From: Roseicella frigidaeris
GTDB lineage: Bacteria > Pseudomonadota > Alphaproteobacteria > Acetobacterales > Acetobacteraceae
NCBI RefSeq assembly: GCF_003258945.1
Contig: NZ_QLIX01000015.1
Location: forward strand, 1-64,000
DNA length: 64,000 nt
Direction of reading: 5' to 3'
Position 1 is the stretch's first letter. The number at the start of each line of letters is the position of its first letter. The notes under the pieces were generated by a model. It had not been told where the DNA came from, did not search any database, and worked only from the letters and a program-made list of their open reading frames with translations. Position numbers and translations under genes: made by a program. Positions 15,856 through 20,333 of this stretch are shown one piece after another.

Positions 15856-16128
15856 ATGCCGACCTTGCCTCCCGCCCATGGCTTCTTCCAGGAGGCGCCT
15901 GCCCAGGCGCCCAGGACCTACGACCTCGCCGCCTTCCACCGCCTCGCCCGGCCCGCGGCGCGGCGCCCGCCGCGCCGGCTGCTCCGGGAATTCGTGTTCC
16001 ACGGCGCCGGCGGGACGCTGCTGCTCGGCCTCGCCCTGCTGCTCTACCTGATGCAGCGCGCCCTCGGCGGCGGCGGGCTGCCGGATTTCGAGCTGGAGCA
16101 GGCGGTGAGCGCCCTGCTGGCGCTTTAG
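15856..16128 (+). CDS. Small single-pass membrane protein, unknown function
   Basis: A 90-residue protein from the ATG at 15856; upstream in-frame starts exist, so the N-terminus is uncertain. An Ala/Arg/Pro-rich half precedes [29 protein letters not shown], which contains one strong transmembrane helix. The last 18 residues are polar and acidic ([16 protein letters not shown]). It is divergent from rimP and convergent with the amidohydrolase. The composition fits coding DNA of this genome, but no family is recognised. Confidence 0.5.
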
Positions 16129-16130
16129 AT

Positions 16131-16254
16131 ACCAACGGCCGTTGATGGATGGCCCATCAACGGCCCCTCCGTCGCCGGGCGGTTCGCTCCGCAAACCTTG
16201 GCGACGCGCCACTGGGCGCGGCGCCCGTTCGGGCGCTCGGCCCTGCGGGCCGCA
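16131..16254 (+). repeat. Dispersed palindromic mosaic repeat, copy A
   Basis: Begins ACCAACGGCCGTTGATGG, which contains the palindrome CAACGGCCGTTG. It includes the hairpin GCGCCCGTTCGGGCGC and ends with GGCCCTGCGGGCCGCA. The same ordered blocks recur at 43301-43442, 54647-54788 (inverted) and 61011-61150. It lies between two convergent genes. Confidence 0.75.
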
Positions 16255-16278
16255 GGCCAGAACGTCGTGCGTCCGCTA

Positions 16279-17745
16279 TCAGCCCAGCCGGTTCCGGTAG
16301 ATCCGCCCGTCCTTCATGATCAGCGCCAGGGTCCGCTCCGGATCGGCGATGCGGTCGAGCTCGGCGATCGGGTCCCCCTCCAGCACCAGCAGGTCGGCCA
16401 GCGCCCCCGGCGCGATGACGCCGACCTTCCCGGCATAGGGCGTGCGCGGGCCGGACATCGCCAGCAGCGCGCCGTTCTGCCCGGTCGCCATGGCCAGGAT
16501 CTCGGCCGCGCCGTACCAGCGCTTCATCTTGGCGAGCTGCGCCCCCTGCCGCTCGGCCAGCCGGGCGCTGAACAGCGTGTCCGTGCCCCAGGCGGTCAGC
16601 GGCCGGTGCTGCACCGCCAGCGCATAGGCGGCGTCCGTCCCGGCCGTCATCTCGCGCTGCTTGGCGCGGCTCGGCGAGCCCTCGGGGAAGGGCGTCGCAT
16701 CCTCGTCGTCGAGGAAGGGCTGCGAGCTGAACCAGATGCCCTGGTCGACCAGCAGCCGCATCGTCGCCTCGTCGATGAGCTGGCCATGCTCGATGCAGCG
16801 CACCCCGGCCTTCACCGCCATCCGGATCGCCCGCGGCGTATAGGCATGCACCGCGACATAGGTGCCCCAATCCGCCGCCGCCTCCACCGCCGCATGCATC
16901 TCCGCCTCGGTGTACTGCGTCACGTCGAGCGGATCGTGGTCCGAGGAGACGCCGCCGCCGGCGGCGAGCTTGACCTGGCTGGCGCCGAGCATGAGCTGCT
17001 CGCGCACCCGCTTCAGCACCTGCGGCACGCCATCGGCGACCATGCCGGCCCCGAGCGCCTCGCCATGGCTGAGCGGCGGGTTCCAGGGCGCCGGCAGATC
17101 GGTGAGCGGGCGGCAATCGCCATGCCCGGAGGTCTGCGAGATCATCGCGCCCGAGGGCCAGATGCGCGGCCCCGCCACCAGCCCGGCATCGATCGCCCGC
17201 TTCAGGGCGAAGCTGGGCCCGGCCATGTCGCGCACGCTGGTGAAGCCGCGCATCAGCGTCCGCTGCGCCTGGTCGGCGGCGGCGAGGGTGATGAAGCCGA
17301 TATCGGCCGTCATCAGCGTGCGGATGTCGAGCGAGGCCATCATGGCGTGCCAATGCGCGTCGATCAGGCCGGGCATCAGGGTGCGGCCGCCGCCCTCGAT
17401 CACCTGCATTCCCTCGCCGGGCGGGTTGCGCGCGGCATCGACCGCCTTGATGCGGTTGCCCTCGACGAGGACGGCGAGCCCGTCGCGCAGCGCCTTGCCC
17501 TCGCCATCGAAGACCCGGAGGTTGCGGAAGAGGATCGGGCCCTTCGGCGGCGCCGGCAGGGCGGCCGCCGCGCCGCGCGGCAGGGCCGCCGCGGCGGCGA
17601 GGCCGGCGCCGCCGGCGAGCAGCGACCGCCGGCCGAGCCGCGCCGTCATCAAGCCGTTCAGCCGGGCGAAGGCGGGGCTCTGGCAGGCGCAGGGCACGGC
17701 GGGGGCCGGGCTGGGGTTGGGATCGGTCGGCGCGCAGACGAGCAT
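16279..17745 (-). CDS. Tat-exported metal-dependent amidohydrolase
   Basis: Amidohydrolase-superfamily hydrolase of 488 residues. A twin-arginine signal (GRRSLLAGGAGLAAAAALP, about 36-55) predicts folded export to the periplasm. Metal-site residues appear in order: DAHWH near 127-131, a Lys in QVKLAAGGG, His in VAVHAYT, His in CIEHGQ and Asp in WGTDTLF. This resembles the imidazolonepropionase/prolidase-like group. The ATG at 17745 has GAAAGG upstream. An alternative ATG at 17649 would give a conventional short Tat n-region and drop the Cys-containing segment PCACQSPAFARLNGL. The substrate is unknown. Confidence 0.85.
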   Translation of the reverse strand: MLVCAPTDPNPSPAPAVPCACQSPAFARLNGLMTARLGRRSLLAGGAGLAAAAALPRGAAAALPAPPKGPILFRNLRVFDGEGKALRDGLAVLVEGNRIKAVDAARNPPGEGMQVIEGGGRTLMPGLIDAHWHAMMASLDIRTLMTADIGFITLAAADQAQRTLMRGFTSVRDMAGPSFALKRAIDAGLVAGPRIWPSGAMISQTSGHGDCRPLTDLPAPWNPPLSHGEALGAGMVADGVPQVLKRVREQLMLGASQVKLAAGGGVSSDHDPLDVTQYTEAEMHAAVEAAADWGTYVAVHAYTPRAIRMAVKAGVRCIEHGQLIDEATMRLLVDQGIWFSSQPFLDDEDATPFPEGSPSRAKQREMTAGTDAAYALAVQHRPLTAWGTDTLFSARLAERQGAQLAKMKRWYGAAEILAMATGQNGALLAMSGPRTPYAGKVGVIAPGALADLLVLEGDPIAELDRIADPERTLALIMKDGRIYRNRLG

Positions 17746-17931
17746 GCGGTTGCCTTTCGTGAGGGCGCTGCCCGGCGCGGCGGGGCCCGAGCGCGAGAGC
17801 CTGGCCGATAGGGCGTGGCCGACGGGGCATGGCCAACGGGGCATGGCCGCGGCCCCGATGCGCGGCGCCGCGGGCGATGCGGGTGAGGATGACCACGCCC
17901 GCCCCGCCGAAGGCAACCCCTGGCGCAGGCC

Positions 17932-17952
17932 GGTAGTGTCTCAGTTTGAGAT
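17932..17952 (+). repeat. Left terminal inverted repeat of the mobile element
   Basis: 21 bp, 18 matching the right end; mismatches at positions 4, 8 and 19. The flanking octamer CGCAGGCC immediately precedes it. Its inner part, TCTCAGTTTGAGA, is itself nearly palindromic. Confidence 0.85.
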
Positions 17953-18040
17953 GTGGGTCCGCCCGCGTCCGTAGCGGCTTGATCATCGCGGTGCCGCCCC
18001 GCACTCCTGTATGCTCGGAATCGAGCCGAGAGGAGATCGG

Positions 18041-18343
18041 ATGAGCGATAATTTGCCCTTGCTGGCATCGGCCATTCTCGTTTGGCTTCCAGACTGCCAG
18101 CGGCCAGACATCCGAAGCTTCGACCCTTCGAAGCTACAGCCGCCTCCTCACCCTAACCCGGAGGCATTCTGGGTGTTACACGAAGCCATAACCCATGCCG
18201 TGGAGACCCATCACCTCGCGGTGGAGAAGGCGCATGACAAGGTGCCTTGGGTTAAGGTCGGAGACCGGATCATGGGGCCTGAGGAAATCCTTCGTATTTA
18301 CAAGGGCATGGGCAATCTGAAGGGTTTTGCCAGCCATGCCTAA
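18041..18343 (+). CDS. Mobile-element passenger protein A, unknown function
   Basis: A 100-residue protein starting MSDNLPLLASAILVWLPD. AGGAGA lies six bases before the ATG, which favours it over an ATG ten codons upstream. The middle is Pro-rich (KLQPPPHPNPEAFWVL). The second half is polar and helical with several His (EAITHAVETHHLAVEKAHDKVPW) and ends in a GPEEILRIYKGMGNLKGFASHA segment. Codon use is more AT-tolerant than in neighbouring genes. Its last 8 bp overlap the next small gene, so the two are probably translationally coupled. No family is recognised. Confidence 0.7.
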   Translation: MSDNLPLLASAILVWLPDCQRPDIRSFDPSKLQPPPHPNPEAFWVLHEAITHAVETHHLAVEKAHDKVPWVKVGDRIMGPEEILRIYKGMGNLKGFASHA

Positions 18344-18488
18344 GGGGCCAAAAGGCGAGAAGTGCCCGGCCCACGTAATCGGAAACGCGGTGCGAGTGAT
18401 GCGGATCGCGACGGGGGAGGAGGCGGAGGACGTGCCGCCGAAGAAGTGTGGCCCCTACAAGCCGCGCCAGAGGAAGATTGCGGCCTAA
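18336..18488 (+). CDS. Mobile-element passenger protein B, short MPKGPKGEK-type protein
   Basis: A 50-residue basic protein beginning MPKGPKGEKCPAHVIGNA and continuing VRVMRIATGEEAED. The start overlaps the stop of the preceding gene by 8 bp. From memory, the opening resembles small proteins (MPKGP-GEKRPADVIGNAV..IATGE) common in rhizobial and related genomes, often in many copies; this was not checked. Those usually continue into a Gly/Lys/Ala-rich tail, whereas this one ends early with GPYKPRQRKIAA, so it may be a shortened variant. Probable nucleic-acid contact is inferred only from its positive charge. Confidence 0.6.
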   Translation: MPKGPKGEKCPAHVIGNAVRVMRIATGEEAEDVPPKKCGPYKPRQRKIAA

Positions 18489-18733
18489 TGGTGGGACCGG
18501 ATCAGCGCGGGCGCAATCACGTCGATCAGCCGCATGGCCGCATCATACGATGCGGCCTTCGCCAGCACTTCGATCCCGCGATCCACCGCTTCCGGGTCGA
18601 ACTCGTAAATGAAGTATCCGGTGTCATCTCCCAATGTCTGAGCTTTGTTTGCCTCAAAGGCATCGAGCGAGATTGGGGAAACACGTAGTTCTCTCCCATC
18701 ACCGATGGGCGCAGCGAATAGGAGGTGGTGCAT
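18485..18733 (-). CDS. Mobile-element passenger protein C, unknown function (opposite strand)
   Basis: An 82-residue acidic protein on the minus strand, MHHLLFAAPIGDGRELRVS onward. It contains a TGYFIYEFDPEAVDRGIEVLAKAASYDAAMRLIDVI segment of plausible alpha/beta composition. It fills the gap between two plus-strand passenger genes. Its start lies over the Shine-Dalgarno of the next gene, so the two promoters or translation starts must interleave. Its 3' end overlaps passenger B by 4 bp. The tight packing argues for a real gene, but no homologue is recognised. Confidence 0.55.
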   Translation of the reverse strand: MHHLLFAAPIGDGRELRVSPISLDAFEANKAQTLGDDTGYFIYEFDPEAVDRGIEVLAKAASYDAAMRLIDVIAPALIRSHH

Positions 18734-19511
18734 GGCGAGTTCCGATTACCGGTGGCGGATCAATAGTCGGCCACGCTTCACGGTGTTGGAAATGGGCGAA
18801 TACATGGCGGCAGACGACGGCCCTCGTGAGACGATGCTCCGAGACATGAGGTTCGAACGCTTGTCTCGCACTCTCATCTATAGGTTTCTCCGCCCGGCCG
18901 TTACACGGTTCCTCACCAGCCCGACGCGCGACCGCGGAATCCTACATCGGTGCCGGGCCACCTTGGAGCACGAAATCGCGGCTGCCTCCAATCCGCAGCA
19001 GCGGGAAAATCTCACGTACGAACTACGGGCACTGCAAGCTTTCGAGGGGAGCCTGAATGCCCTGGAAATGGCCGGCTTGAACTTCGAACCTGCTCAAGCG
19101 GCCCCGCCGCTGCGGATTGAAGGCGTCACGGTCAGCGTGCAGCCGACCGCCCACATTCGGGTGCGGCGTCCACGCGGGACCGACCTTGCCGGAGCAATCG
19201 TGGTGGATGTGGCCAAAGGAATTGCCCTCAAGTCCGACGAGGCAGTCGCGCGCCGATCTGACGGCATGCGACACGCCGCGGTGCTGGTCCACGAGTACGT
19301 GGCCGGTGCGCTTGGCCCCGACGGCGCCAAGCCATCGCCGGACCACTCAATCATCTTTCACAGCCATCGTCAGGAACGGGTGTGCGCGCCAAGCGGATAT
19401 CGGAGAATGTTACGCAACGTTGAGGCCGCCTGTCGGAACATCGCCCGAAGTTGGGAAGGCATCCAGCCACCAGCGAATTTTGACCTGAATCTGGCCAGGA
19501 CGCGTCGCTAA
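18732..19511 (+). CDS. Mobile-element passenger protein D, unknown function
   Basis: The largest passenger, 259 residues. The ATG at 18732 has a strong AGGAGG about seven bases upstream; an earlier in-frame start lacks this. The N-terminal half is Arg-rich and helical (RETMLRDMRFERLSRTLIYRFLRP, then RCRATLEHEIAAASNPQQRENLTYELRALQAFE). The second half looks like a beta-rich domain (LRIEGVTVSVQPTAHIRVRRP, then GAIVVDVAKGIAL) ending HEYVAGALG and a His/Arg-rich helix. The stop codon TAA shares its last base with the right inverted repeat, so the element ends exactly at the gene. No transposase motif is seen. Confidence 0.7.
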   Translation: MASSDYRWRINSRPRFTVLEMGEYMAADDGPRETMLRDMRFERLSRTLIYRFLRPAVTRFLTSPTRDRGILHRCRATLEHEIAAASNPQQRENLTYELRALQAFEGSLNALEMAGLNFEPAQAAPPLRIEGVTVSVQPTAHIRVRRPRGTDLAGAIVVDVAKGIALKSDEAVARRSDGMRHAAVLVHEYVAGALGPDGAKPSPDHSIIFHSHRQERVCAPSGYRRMLRNVEAACRNIARSWEGIQPPANFDLNLARTRR

Positions 19512-19531
19512 TTTCAAACTGAGGCACCACC
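19511..19531 (-). repeat. Right terminal inverted repeat of the mobile element
   Basis: Inverted copy of the left end, 18 of 21 identical, followed directly by CGCAGGCC (19532-19539). It begins at the final base of the passenger D stop codon. Confidence 0.85.
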
Positions 19532-19613
19532 CGCAGGCCCGGTGGATGCCGGCCGGAACCGTCGCCGCCTTGTACCGCCCCTGGGGCCCCTCCCCTGGCC
19601 CGGCGGGGCGCCC

Positions 19614-20333
19614 CTACCCGTCCCTGCGGCGGAGCGACCAGTAGAGCGGCTGCCGCCCCTCGCGCAGCGCCTTCGCCTCGTAGCGGGTCGGCGGCCAGCC
19701 CTCCGGCCGCGTCCTGGCCGGGGGCGGCGCCTCGAAGAGGTCCTGCGCCGCCAGCACCTCGGCGGTCCAGGCCTGGTAGGTCGGGTCGTCGGAGGCGATG
19801 CGCCACTCGCCGCCCGGGCGGATCGCCCGCGCCACCAGCGGCAGCAGGCCCGGATTGACGAAGCGCCGCTTGGCGTGCCGGGCCTTCGGCCAGGGATCGG
19901 GGAAGAGCAGGAAGAGCCGGTCGAGCGAGGCCGCCGGCAGCAGGCCGAGCAGGTGCCGCGCATCCTGCGGCCAGAGGCGCAGGTTGGGCGGCAGCGGGCC
20001 GCTTGCCTCCTCGCCCTCGACGACGAGGCGCGAGAGCAGGGAGCAGAGCCCGTTCTCGAAGACCTCGGCGGCGATGTAGCCGATGCCGGGATTGGCCCCG
20101 ACATGCGCCAGCGCATGCTCGCCGCCGCCGAAGCCGACCTCGAGCCACAGCGCCTCGACCGGGATGGCGAAGGCGGCGCGCGGCTCCCCCGCCGCCGCGG
20201 GGGCGAGGCGGAGCCGCGGCAGGGTCTCGTCCAGCAGCCGCTGCTGGCGGGGCCGCAGCGGGTGGCTGCGGCGGCGGCCATAGAGGCGGTCGGGGATGCC
20301 CTCGGCGAGGGGCGGCCGGTCGGCCGTGGTCAT
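19614..20333 (-). CDS. trmB: tRNA (guanine(46)-N7)-methyltransferase
   Basis: SAM-dependent enzyme that methylates G46 in the variable loop of tRNAs. It has 239 residues. The SAM-binding motif is LEVGFGGGEH. RLFLLFPDPWPKARHAKRRF is the family signature. The C-terminus has PPTRYEAKALREGR, matching the conserved T-x-YE motif. The ATG at 20333 (MTTADRPPLAEGI) is chosen because the frame further upstream runs through a tandem repeat and encodes only Arg/Gly-rich sequence. It lies downstream of metK, as in other alphaproteobacteria. Confidence 0.93.
   Translation of the reverse strand: MTTADRPPLAEGIPDRLYGRRRSHPLRPRQQRLLDETLPRLRLAPAAAGEPRAAFAIPVEALWLEVGFGGGEHALAHVGANPGIGYIAAEVFENGLCSLLSRLVVEGEEASGPLPPNLRLWPQDARHLLGLLPAASLDRLFLLFPDPWPKARHAKRRFVNPGLLPLVARAIRPGGEWRIASDDPTYQAWTAEVLAAQDLFEAPPPARTRPEGWPPTRYEAKALREGRQPLYWSLRRRDG

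Follow-up and report, generated by a model that had tools for sequence, protein, structure and literature searches.

A transposase-less 1.6-kb segment of a Roseicella frigidaeris contig, very probably a passenger-carrying IS1-type transposon shortened by internal deletion

The segment at positions 17,932-19,531 of the window, the whole 64,000-nucleotide stretch of Roseicella frigidaeris contig NZ_QLIX01000015.1 that was analysed, very probably derives from a passenger-carrying IS1-type transposon by internal deletion. According to this reading, the ancestral transposon would have carried a small gene (B), its transposase and a gene pair (C/D), in that order, between ends typical of its group. 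An internal deletion would have cut out almost the entire transposase together with the remainder of B and any DNA between them, leaving both ends and C/D in place. Either before or after that deletion, a transposase of the group, acting on the two ends, would have inserted the element between trmB and an amidohydrolase gene.

The element is bounded by terminal inverted repeats of the IS1-type group at 17932..17952 (left, plus strand) and 19511..19531 (right, minus strand). These 21-bp ends are identical at 18 of 21 positions and are directly flanked by a perfect 8-bp target-site duplication, CGCAGGCC, located at 17924..17931 and 19532..19539. A scan of the whole window, in which this was the best inverted pair adjoining a perfect 8-bp repeat, confirmed what the original prediction had said of the ends and their repeat. 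First-order Markov resamples of the window (n = 20) reached a best pair of 17/21, so the end pair taken alone is only moderately convincing and outside evidence was needed; the recurrence of the end sequence in public genomes settles the question. The original prediction also described an interior richer in AT than its surroundings, devoid of a transposase and followed by a right end that begins on the last base of a stop codon. All three descriptions hold: GC content is 60.9% in the element versus 74.1% in the window, a transposase profile search over the ORFs of the window element (L001) finds no transposase, and the last base of the D stop codon, 19511, is also where the right end starts. 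The four tightly packed genes that it listed stand in part, with A, C and D kept as genes and the second ORF (18336-18488) reinterpreted as a fusion scar; the four do not form one operon because the third lies on the minus strand.

The exact end pattern is present in at least 118 stretches of public genome contigs, assigned by record title mostly to Alphaproteobacteria and further to Acidobacteria, Bacteroidetes, Planctomycetes and others; metagenome bins make up many of the records. When one end was allowed at most 1 mismatch and the other at most 6, 69 end pairs were obtained in the 118 listed loci, and 33 of them are flanked by a perfect 8-bp repeat, an outcome expected by chance at about 1.5e-5 per pair. 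Full elements with the same ends, whose search had been proposed as a check, are found among these 33, all of them elements other than that of the window: transposase-matching frames totalling more than 800 nt occur in 22 (broken in two, L029 and L061), a remnant in two and none in nine. In viral contigs, where 88 stretches were recovered, 25 of 60 end pairs have a perfect 8-bp repeat, and these 25 elements comprise ten with transposase-matching frames of at least 732 nt, ten with a remnant and five with none. They reduce to 22 distinct cases, as a single insertion seems to underlie four of the remnant rows, one target repeat being common to all of them (L254, L285, L301 and L309, inverted in L285); the first three are near-identical, L309 having been left out of that comparison. 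That the ends are a product of chance, and the segment no transposon at all, could be argued from the resampled GC-rich windows, which do yield such a pair beside an 8-bp repeat, but both ends match the sequence of those at least 118 genome stretches, and B and D are common to elements with such ends. This reading is already refuted by the recurrence of the ends, the duplications and the scar alignments described below, and its probability is vanishingly small.

The transposase of the group is a single ORF of about 290 aa (22 aligned). When four of these proteins were compared with Pfam, DDE_Tnp_IS1 was the top match, above the cut-off in L004, L054 and L197 and at 19 bits, below the cut-off of 24.1, in L071. 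In NCBIfam, the best match of the L004 transposase is IS1, at 70.6 bits (curated cut-off 100), with IS1595 at 19.5 bits. On an Acidiphilium plasmid, the NCBI annotation 'IS1 family transposase' is given to a gene of an element that has ends of this kind and the repeat AAGCCGAG. The ends are those of IS1-type transposons whose IS1-like DDE transposase is encoded by a single ORF. Target duplications in the IS1 family range from 8 to 9 bp; that of the window element measures 8 bp and its terminal repeats are those of IS1-type transposase-bearing elements, while of an IS1-type DDE transposase of its own it retains no more than the final 20 or so residues. An IS1595 origin, the first guess from the ends, was ruled out: the end-sharing transposases match IS1 models better, and the transposase of L004, the sole one scanned against NCBIfam, is not of the IS1595 type. 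The two IS1595 matches of the R. frigidaeris genome, a transposase (G000:C67:77827-78264) and a fragment (G000:C38:18704-18826), sit on other contigs. Other cargo among the relatives includes HTH-M78, P63C and SocA/Panacea proteins. Ends of the same type also surround transposase-less segments with a P63C-like gene (L027:2192-3105, left end with 6 mismatches), a DUF2335 gene (L070:3992-5049), a uracil-DNA-glycosylase-like gene (L093:4486-5294) and a SocA/Panacea-related gene (L078:4644-5701, repeat matching at 7/8).

The trace of the lost transposase lies in the second ORF, a B'-tnp' fusion of 50 aa at 18336..18488 (plus strand), whose junction is placed at about 18415-18440 by alignments with B and the transposase. 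This ORF has the N-terminus of B, lacks its C-terminal part and continues in frame into approximately the last 20 transposase residues. The transposase C-terminus, which reads KRGPYKTRQPKAA in L197 and KRGSYKPRQPKAA in L212, has its counterpart in the tail of this ORF, KKCGPYKPRQRKIAA; in the L197 transposase, DAREAPAAKRGPYKTRQPKAA is the stretch aligned with the scar tail EAEDVPPKKCGPYKPRQRKIA. The tail was compared in a shuffle test with nine transposase C-termini, among them L197, L203 and L212, included because their DNA match was already known. None of 2000 shuffles reached the score for four of the nine, and 1, 2 and 13 of 2000 equalled it for three others; the remaining two, L198 and L169, gave no match to the scar tail, and neither did any of three B C-termini. 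At the DNA level, the scar matches the 3' end of the L197 transposase gene (E 9.7e-5), the matches to L203 (E 0.05) and L212 (E 0.61) being weak on their own. An independent in-frame B'-tnp' fusion exists in a viral contig (L256:2454-3188), within a perfect duplication TAGGACCG, and a Mesorhizobium neociceri contig (L090:6945-7154) has a similar B-transposase junction, out of frame and beside a right end, at which neither a left end nor a matching repeat was seen. Judged from these alignments, the 50-aa ORF is the start of B fused to the C-terminus of the transposase, so a deletion took what followed in B, all but the end of the transposase and anything between them.

The undeleted order B - transposase - C - D is found in four elements, three of them with perfect 8-bp repeats (L071, L165 and L179) and one, L241, with both ends and without a matching repeat; the order in L071 is that of L165 when read from the right end. 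In L165 the profile detects B only weakly (E about 0.01), and in L179 B was identified by eye. The scar and these relatives together indicate that an ancestor with the order B - transposase - C/D lost its transposase internally. Two of the elements have an extra minus-strand gene between B and the transposase, without a Pfam match in L165 (5529-6026) and HARE-HTH-like, just below the curated cut-off, in L179 (2927-3379). Profile matches to the small protein B (MPKGPKGEKRPADVIGNAVKVMRIATGE...) occur in 36 of 123 loci, three of which are copies of the window element, and a relative on one plasmid is annotated 'RNA-binding protein'. Ahead of the scar lies gene A (100 aa, 18041..18343, plus strand), which matches no Pfam or NCBIfam family and has no homologs in plasmids or among the ORFs that precede B elsewhere. 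It overlaps the next gene by 8 bases, comparable to the overlaps at other B loci, where by hand count 17 of 36 have a short ORF running 1, 8 or 17 bases into B. No two of these upstream ORFs are alike at E 1e-3, copies of the window element excepted. Accessory gene B, a short gene ahead of it and cargo that varies are frequent in transposase-bearing members of the group.

The cargo of the window element consists of two orphan genes in divergent orientation, C (82 aa, 18485..18733, minus strand) and D (259 aa, 18732..19511, plus strand), whose predicted starts overlap in CATG; an AGGAGG lies just upstream of D and its stop overlaps the right end. Leaving out the fragment-only loci L167 and L183 and repeat fetches, D is present, full-length or split (L168), in 19 loci: the window, L071, L165, L166, L168, L178-L182, L241, L280 and L327-L333. 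C stands divergently beside it in 18 of the 19, the exception being L327, which has no C and contributes the closest relative of the window D (48%). This D may have outlived its element. At its stop (L327:4483-4503) there is a possible eroded IS1-type end with 8/21 mismatches. C without a detectable D occurs in L239 and L326. The first plausible starts share CATG in six of ten inspected loci (window, L165, L178, L179, L180 and L181). IS1-type ends lie beside C/D in the window, L071, L165, L179, L241 and L280 and are degenerate in L332; clear ends of this type were not found for L166, L168, L178, L181, L328-L331 and L333. At L180 (563-5119) the pair is borne by an element of 4,557 bp that encodes an IS1595-type transposase, has ends CGC(T/C)TATATCCCCTTGAA matching at 17/18 and shows the repeat TTTTTGCA, and at L182 an IS1595 transposase fragment adjoins C/D. 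The L180 element has two further ORFs with no Pfam match. Searches for D with peptide patterns gave nothing in viral contigs, two of which were later found to contain it through the end pattern (L241 and L280), and a search of phage records with the L166 homolog as query gave none.

At the level of function, C/D might be a self-contained module, hitching on transposons and maintained for its own sake, in which the small C would control or neutralise D. Its identity as a toxin-antitoxin-like or anti-phage module, the selfish cargo of the element, is a tentative proposal. It draws on the divergent small and larger genes being kept together in 18 of the 19 D loci, on their occurrence in IS1-type elements and one IS1595-type element, and on the SocA-Panacea antitoxin-like and HTH-M78 genes borne by related elements. 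The libraries speak against it: D has only scattered weak matches in Pfam, PHROG and PADLOC (E 0.096 or worse), C has none in Pfam, and the window pair matches no described toxin or antitoxin family in NCBIfam. None of nine D proteins, the only ones of the pair scanned for defence systems, matches a PADLOC model, and nothing convincing was obtained for C and D among PDB sequences (best E 1.7 and 0.086). Predicted structures are likewise uninformative, the model of D, built on a 2-sequence alignment, having been set aside (pLDDT 38.9) and that of C (pLDDT 68) showing no fold match at E <= 0.001. The solitary D of L327 and the two solitary copies of C also weigh against a module, as does the divergent layout, since type II toxin-antitoxin pairs are usually co-directional. 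A more far-reaching view, in which C/D is a new autonomous two-gene selfish or defence module, often with starts overlapping head-to-head, that travels with transposases of two or more families (IS1 and IS1595 among them), outlives the transposase and lets the element persist through its cargo, appears unlikely at present. Among the open-licence papers listed by literature searches, no title or abstract opening describes IS1-family elements with passenger genes or the C/D pair.

At the insertion locus, between trmB and the amidohydrolase gene, the sister genome G003 has its rimP side and trmB side about 44 bp apart, so the element and the amidohydrolase gene are both extra there. The 3.5-kb block comprising the two (window 16126-19626) is absent between rimP and trmB in G003. 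Relatives of the amidohydrolase are found elsewhere in G001 (75%) and G003 (66%). An exact empty site was not found, G003 lacking the amidohydrolase gene at that place too. The original prediction would have been undermined by orthologous genomes bearing the segment at the same locus without empty sites, or by an absence of matching ends anywhere else; the closest sister genome among those compared lacks the segment, and the ends recur as described. The search of its own genome for the 21-bp ends and the full 1,600 bp came back empty: in this draft of 87 contigs the element has no second copy, its ends do not recur within 3 mismatches and no group transposase was detected, the same transposase query having matched other genomes. 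The transposase profile matches 38 of 249 family genomes, 14 of them near full length (counted from rows), and many of the remaining short weak matches may be other DDE transposases. Possible helper transposases thus circulate in the family and are not seen in the R. frigidaeris genome. In ten genomes searched, out of those with the 11 transposase-poor elements, there is one near full-length transposase match; G781 has a 313-aa frame, matched in two pieces. No near-identical D was detected in sets of 59, 398 and 397 genomes, which overlap (best 48%). None of the genomes searched showed this deletion at any other site, and no deletion form is repeated at different sites among the small related elements compared.

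Within the internal-deletion reading, two histories have to be weighed. The original prediction favoured a cargo element moved by a helper transposase, and the part of it describing a transposition product with cargo, intact ends, a target duplication, no transposase and transposase-bearing kin stands. Movement of the transposase-less form itself to this site, with the transposase supplied in trans, is possible and somewhat doubtful. Ends near the consensus with a perfect duplication are consistent with it, as is the frequency of transposase-poor elements with perfect duplications (11 of the 33 listed genome elements and 15 of the 25 viral ones, four of whose rows look like one insertion) and the near full-length transposases of the 14 family genomes; the single copy, the lack of a co-resident group transposase and the failure to find a near-identical D in the genome sets point the other way. 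Should a transposase of the group enter the cell, the deleted element could still move in trans. Alternatively, a complete element may have inserted here and lost its transposase later, a course of events with about even chances. Deletion after insertion explains the data equally well, because the scar shows that the element once had its own transposase. This course agrees with a scar that joins two genes of one ancestral element, with the single copy in a genome that has no helper, and with the frequency of broken or partial transposases in the group. Against it, there is no further sign of decay: the reading frames of A, C, D and the fusion ORF are intact, and the ends stay near the consensus.

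Under the preferred reading of an internally deleted IS1-type transposon, what began as a guess of a passenger-only element acquires a readable history, with the kind of parent, the lost part and the junction. The element also leads to a widely distributed set of IS1-type transposons in which one accessory gene recurs and the cargo varies, along with their transposase-less derivatives, and to an orphan pair, C/D, which occurs with both IS1-type and IS1595-type transposases and has a function that is directly testable. Two-gene passenger modules tied to transposons have precedents in the toxin-antitoxin modules on Tn3-family transposons outlined in one report (PMC7157771) and in the Panacea pairs near transposase genes mentioned in another (PMC8832971). 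Unlike these, C/D has no similarity to toxin or antitoxin families in the libraries tried. The passenger-bearing 'transporter IS' of the IS1595 family, as presented in PMC3129680, which cites Siguier 2009, are likewise IS with passenger genes, and the IS1595-type element of L180 bears the same C/D pair; the transposase type and the ends of the window element differ from theirs. A closer likeness in the ends is offered by ISAba3-type elements. PMC6382973 describes IS1-family copies 81% identical to ISAba3, with the terminal repeat GGTGGTGTTTCAAAAAGTATGCTG and ends GGTGGTGTTTCA, that bound an 8.5-kb insert with 8-bp duplications at its ends; the GGT(A/G)GTG-type ends and the 8-bp duplications are shared with the window element and its relatives, and the IS1-like transposase with the relatives. 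Unlike ISAba3-type elements, many relatives here are 2-4 kb long with passenger genes, and the window copy keeps only about 20 C-terminal transposase residues.

Mobile insertion cassettes carry passenger genes, and IS-type ends around passenger genes without a transposase are what the window element displays. In this it resembles MIC231, a mobile insertion cassette reference entry in PMC6542083, and other transposase-less IS derivatives, some of which can be activated by a cognate transposase according to PMC3129680. Unlike those cassettes, it combines IS1-type ends, a readable junction with the parent transposase, the undescribed C/D as cargo and a genome in which no helper was seen. The window element is therefore of a known kind, a transposase-less IS derivative or mobile insertion cassette, distinguished by an IS1-type parent, a readable scar and a divergent gene pair not described before as its cargo.
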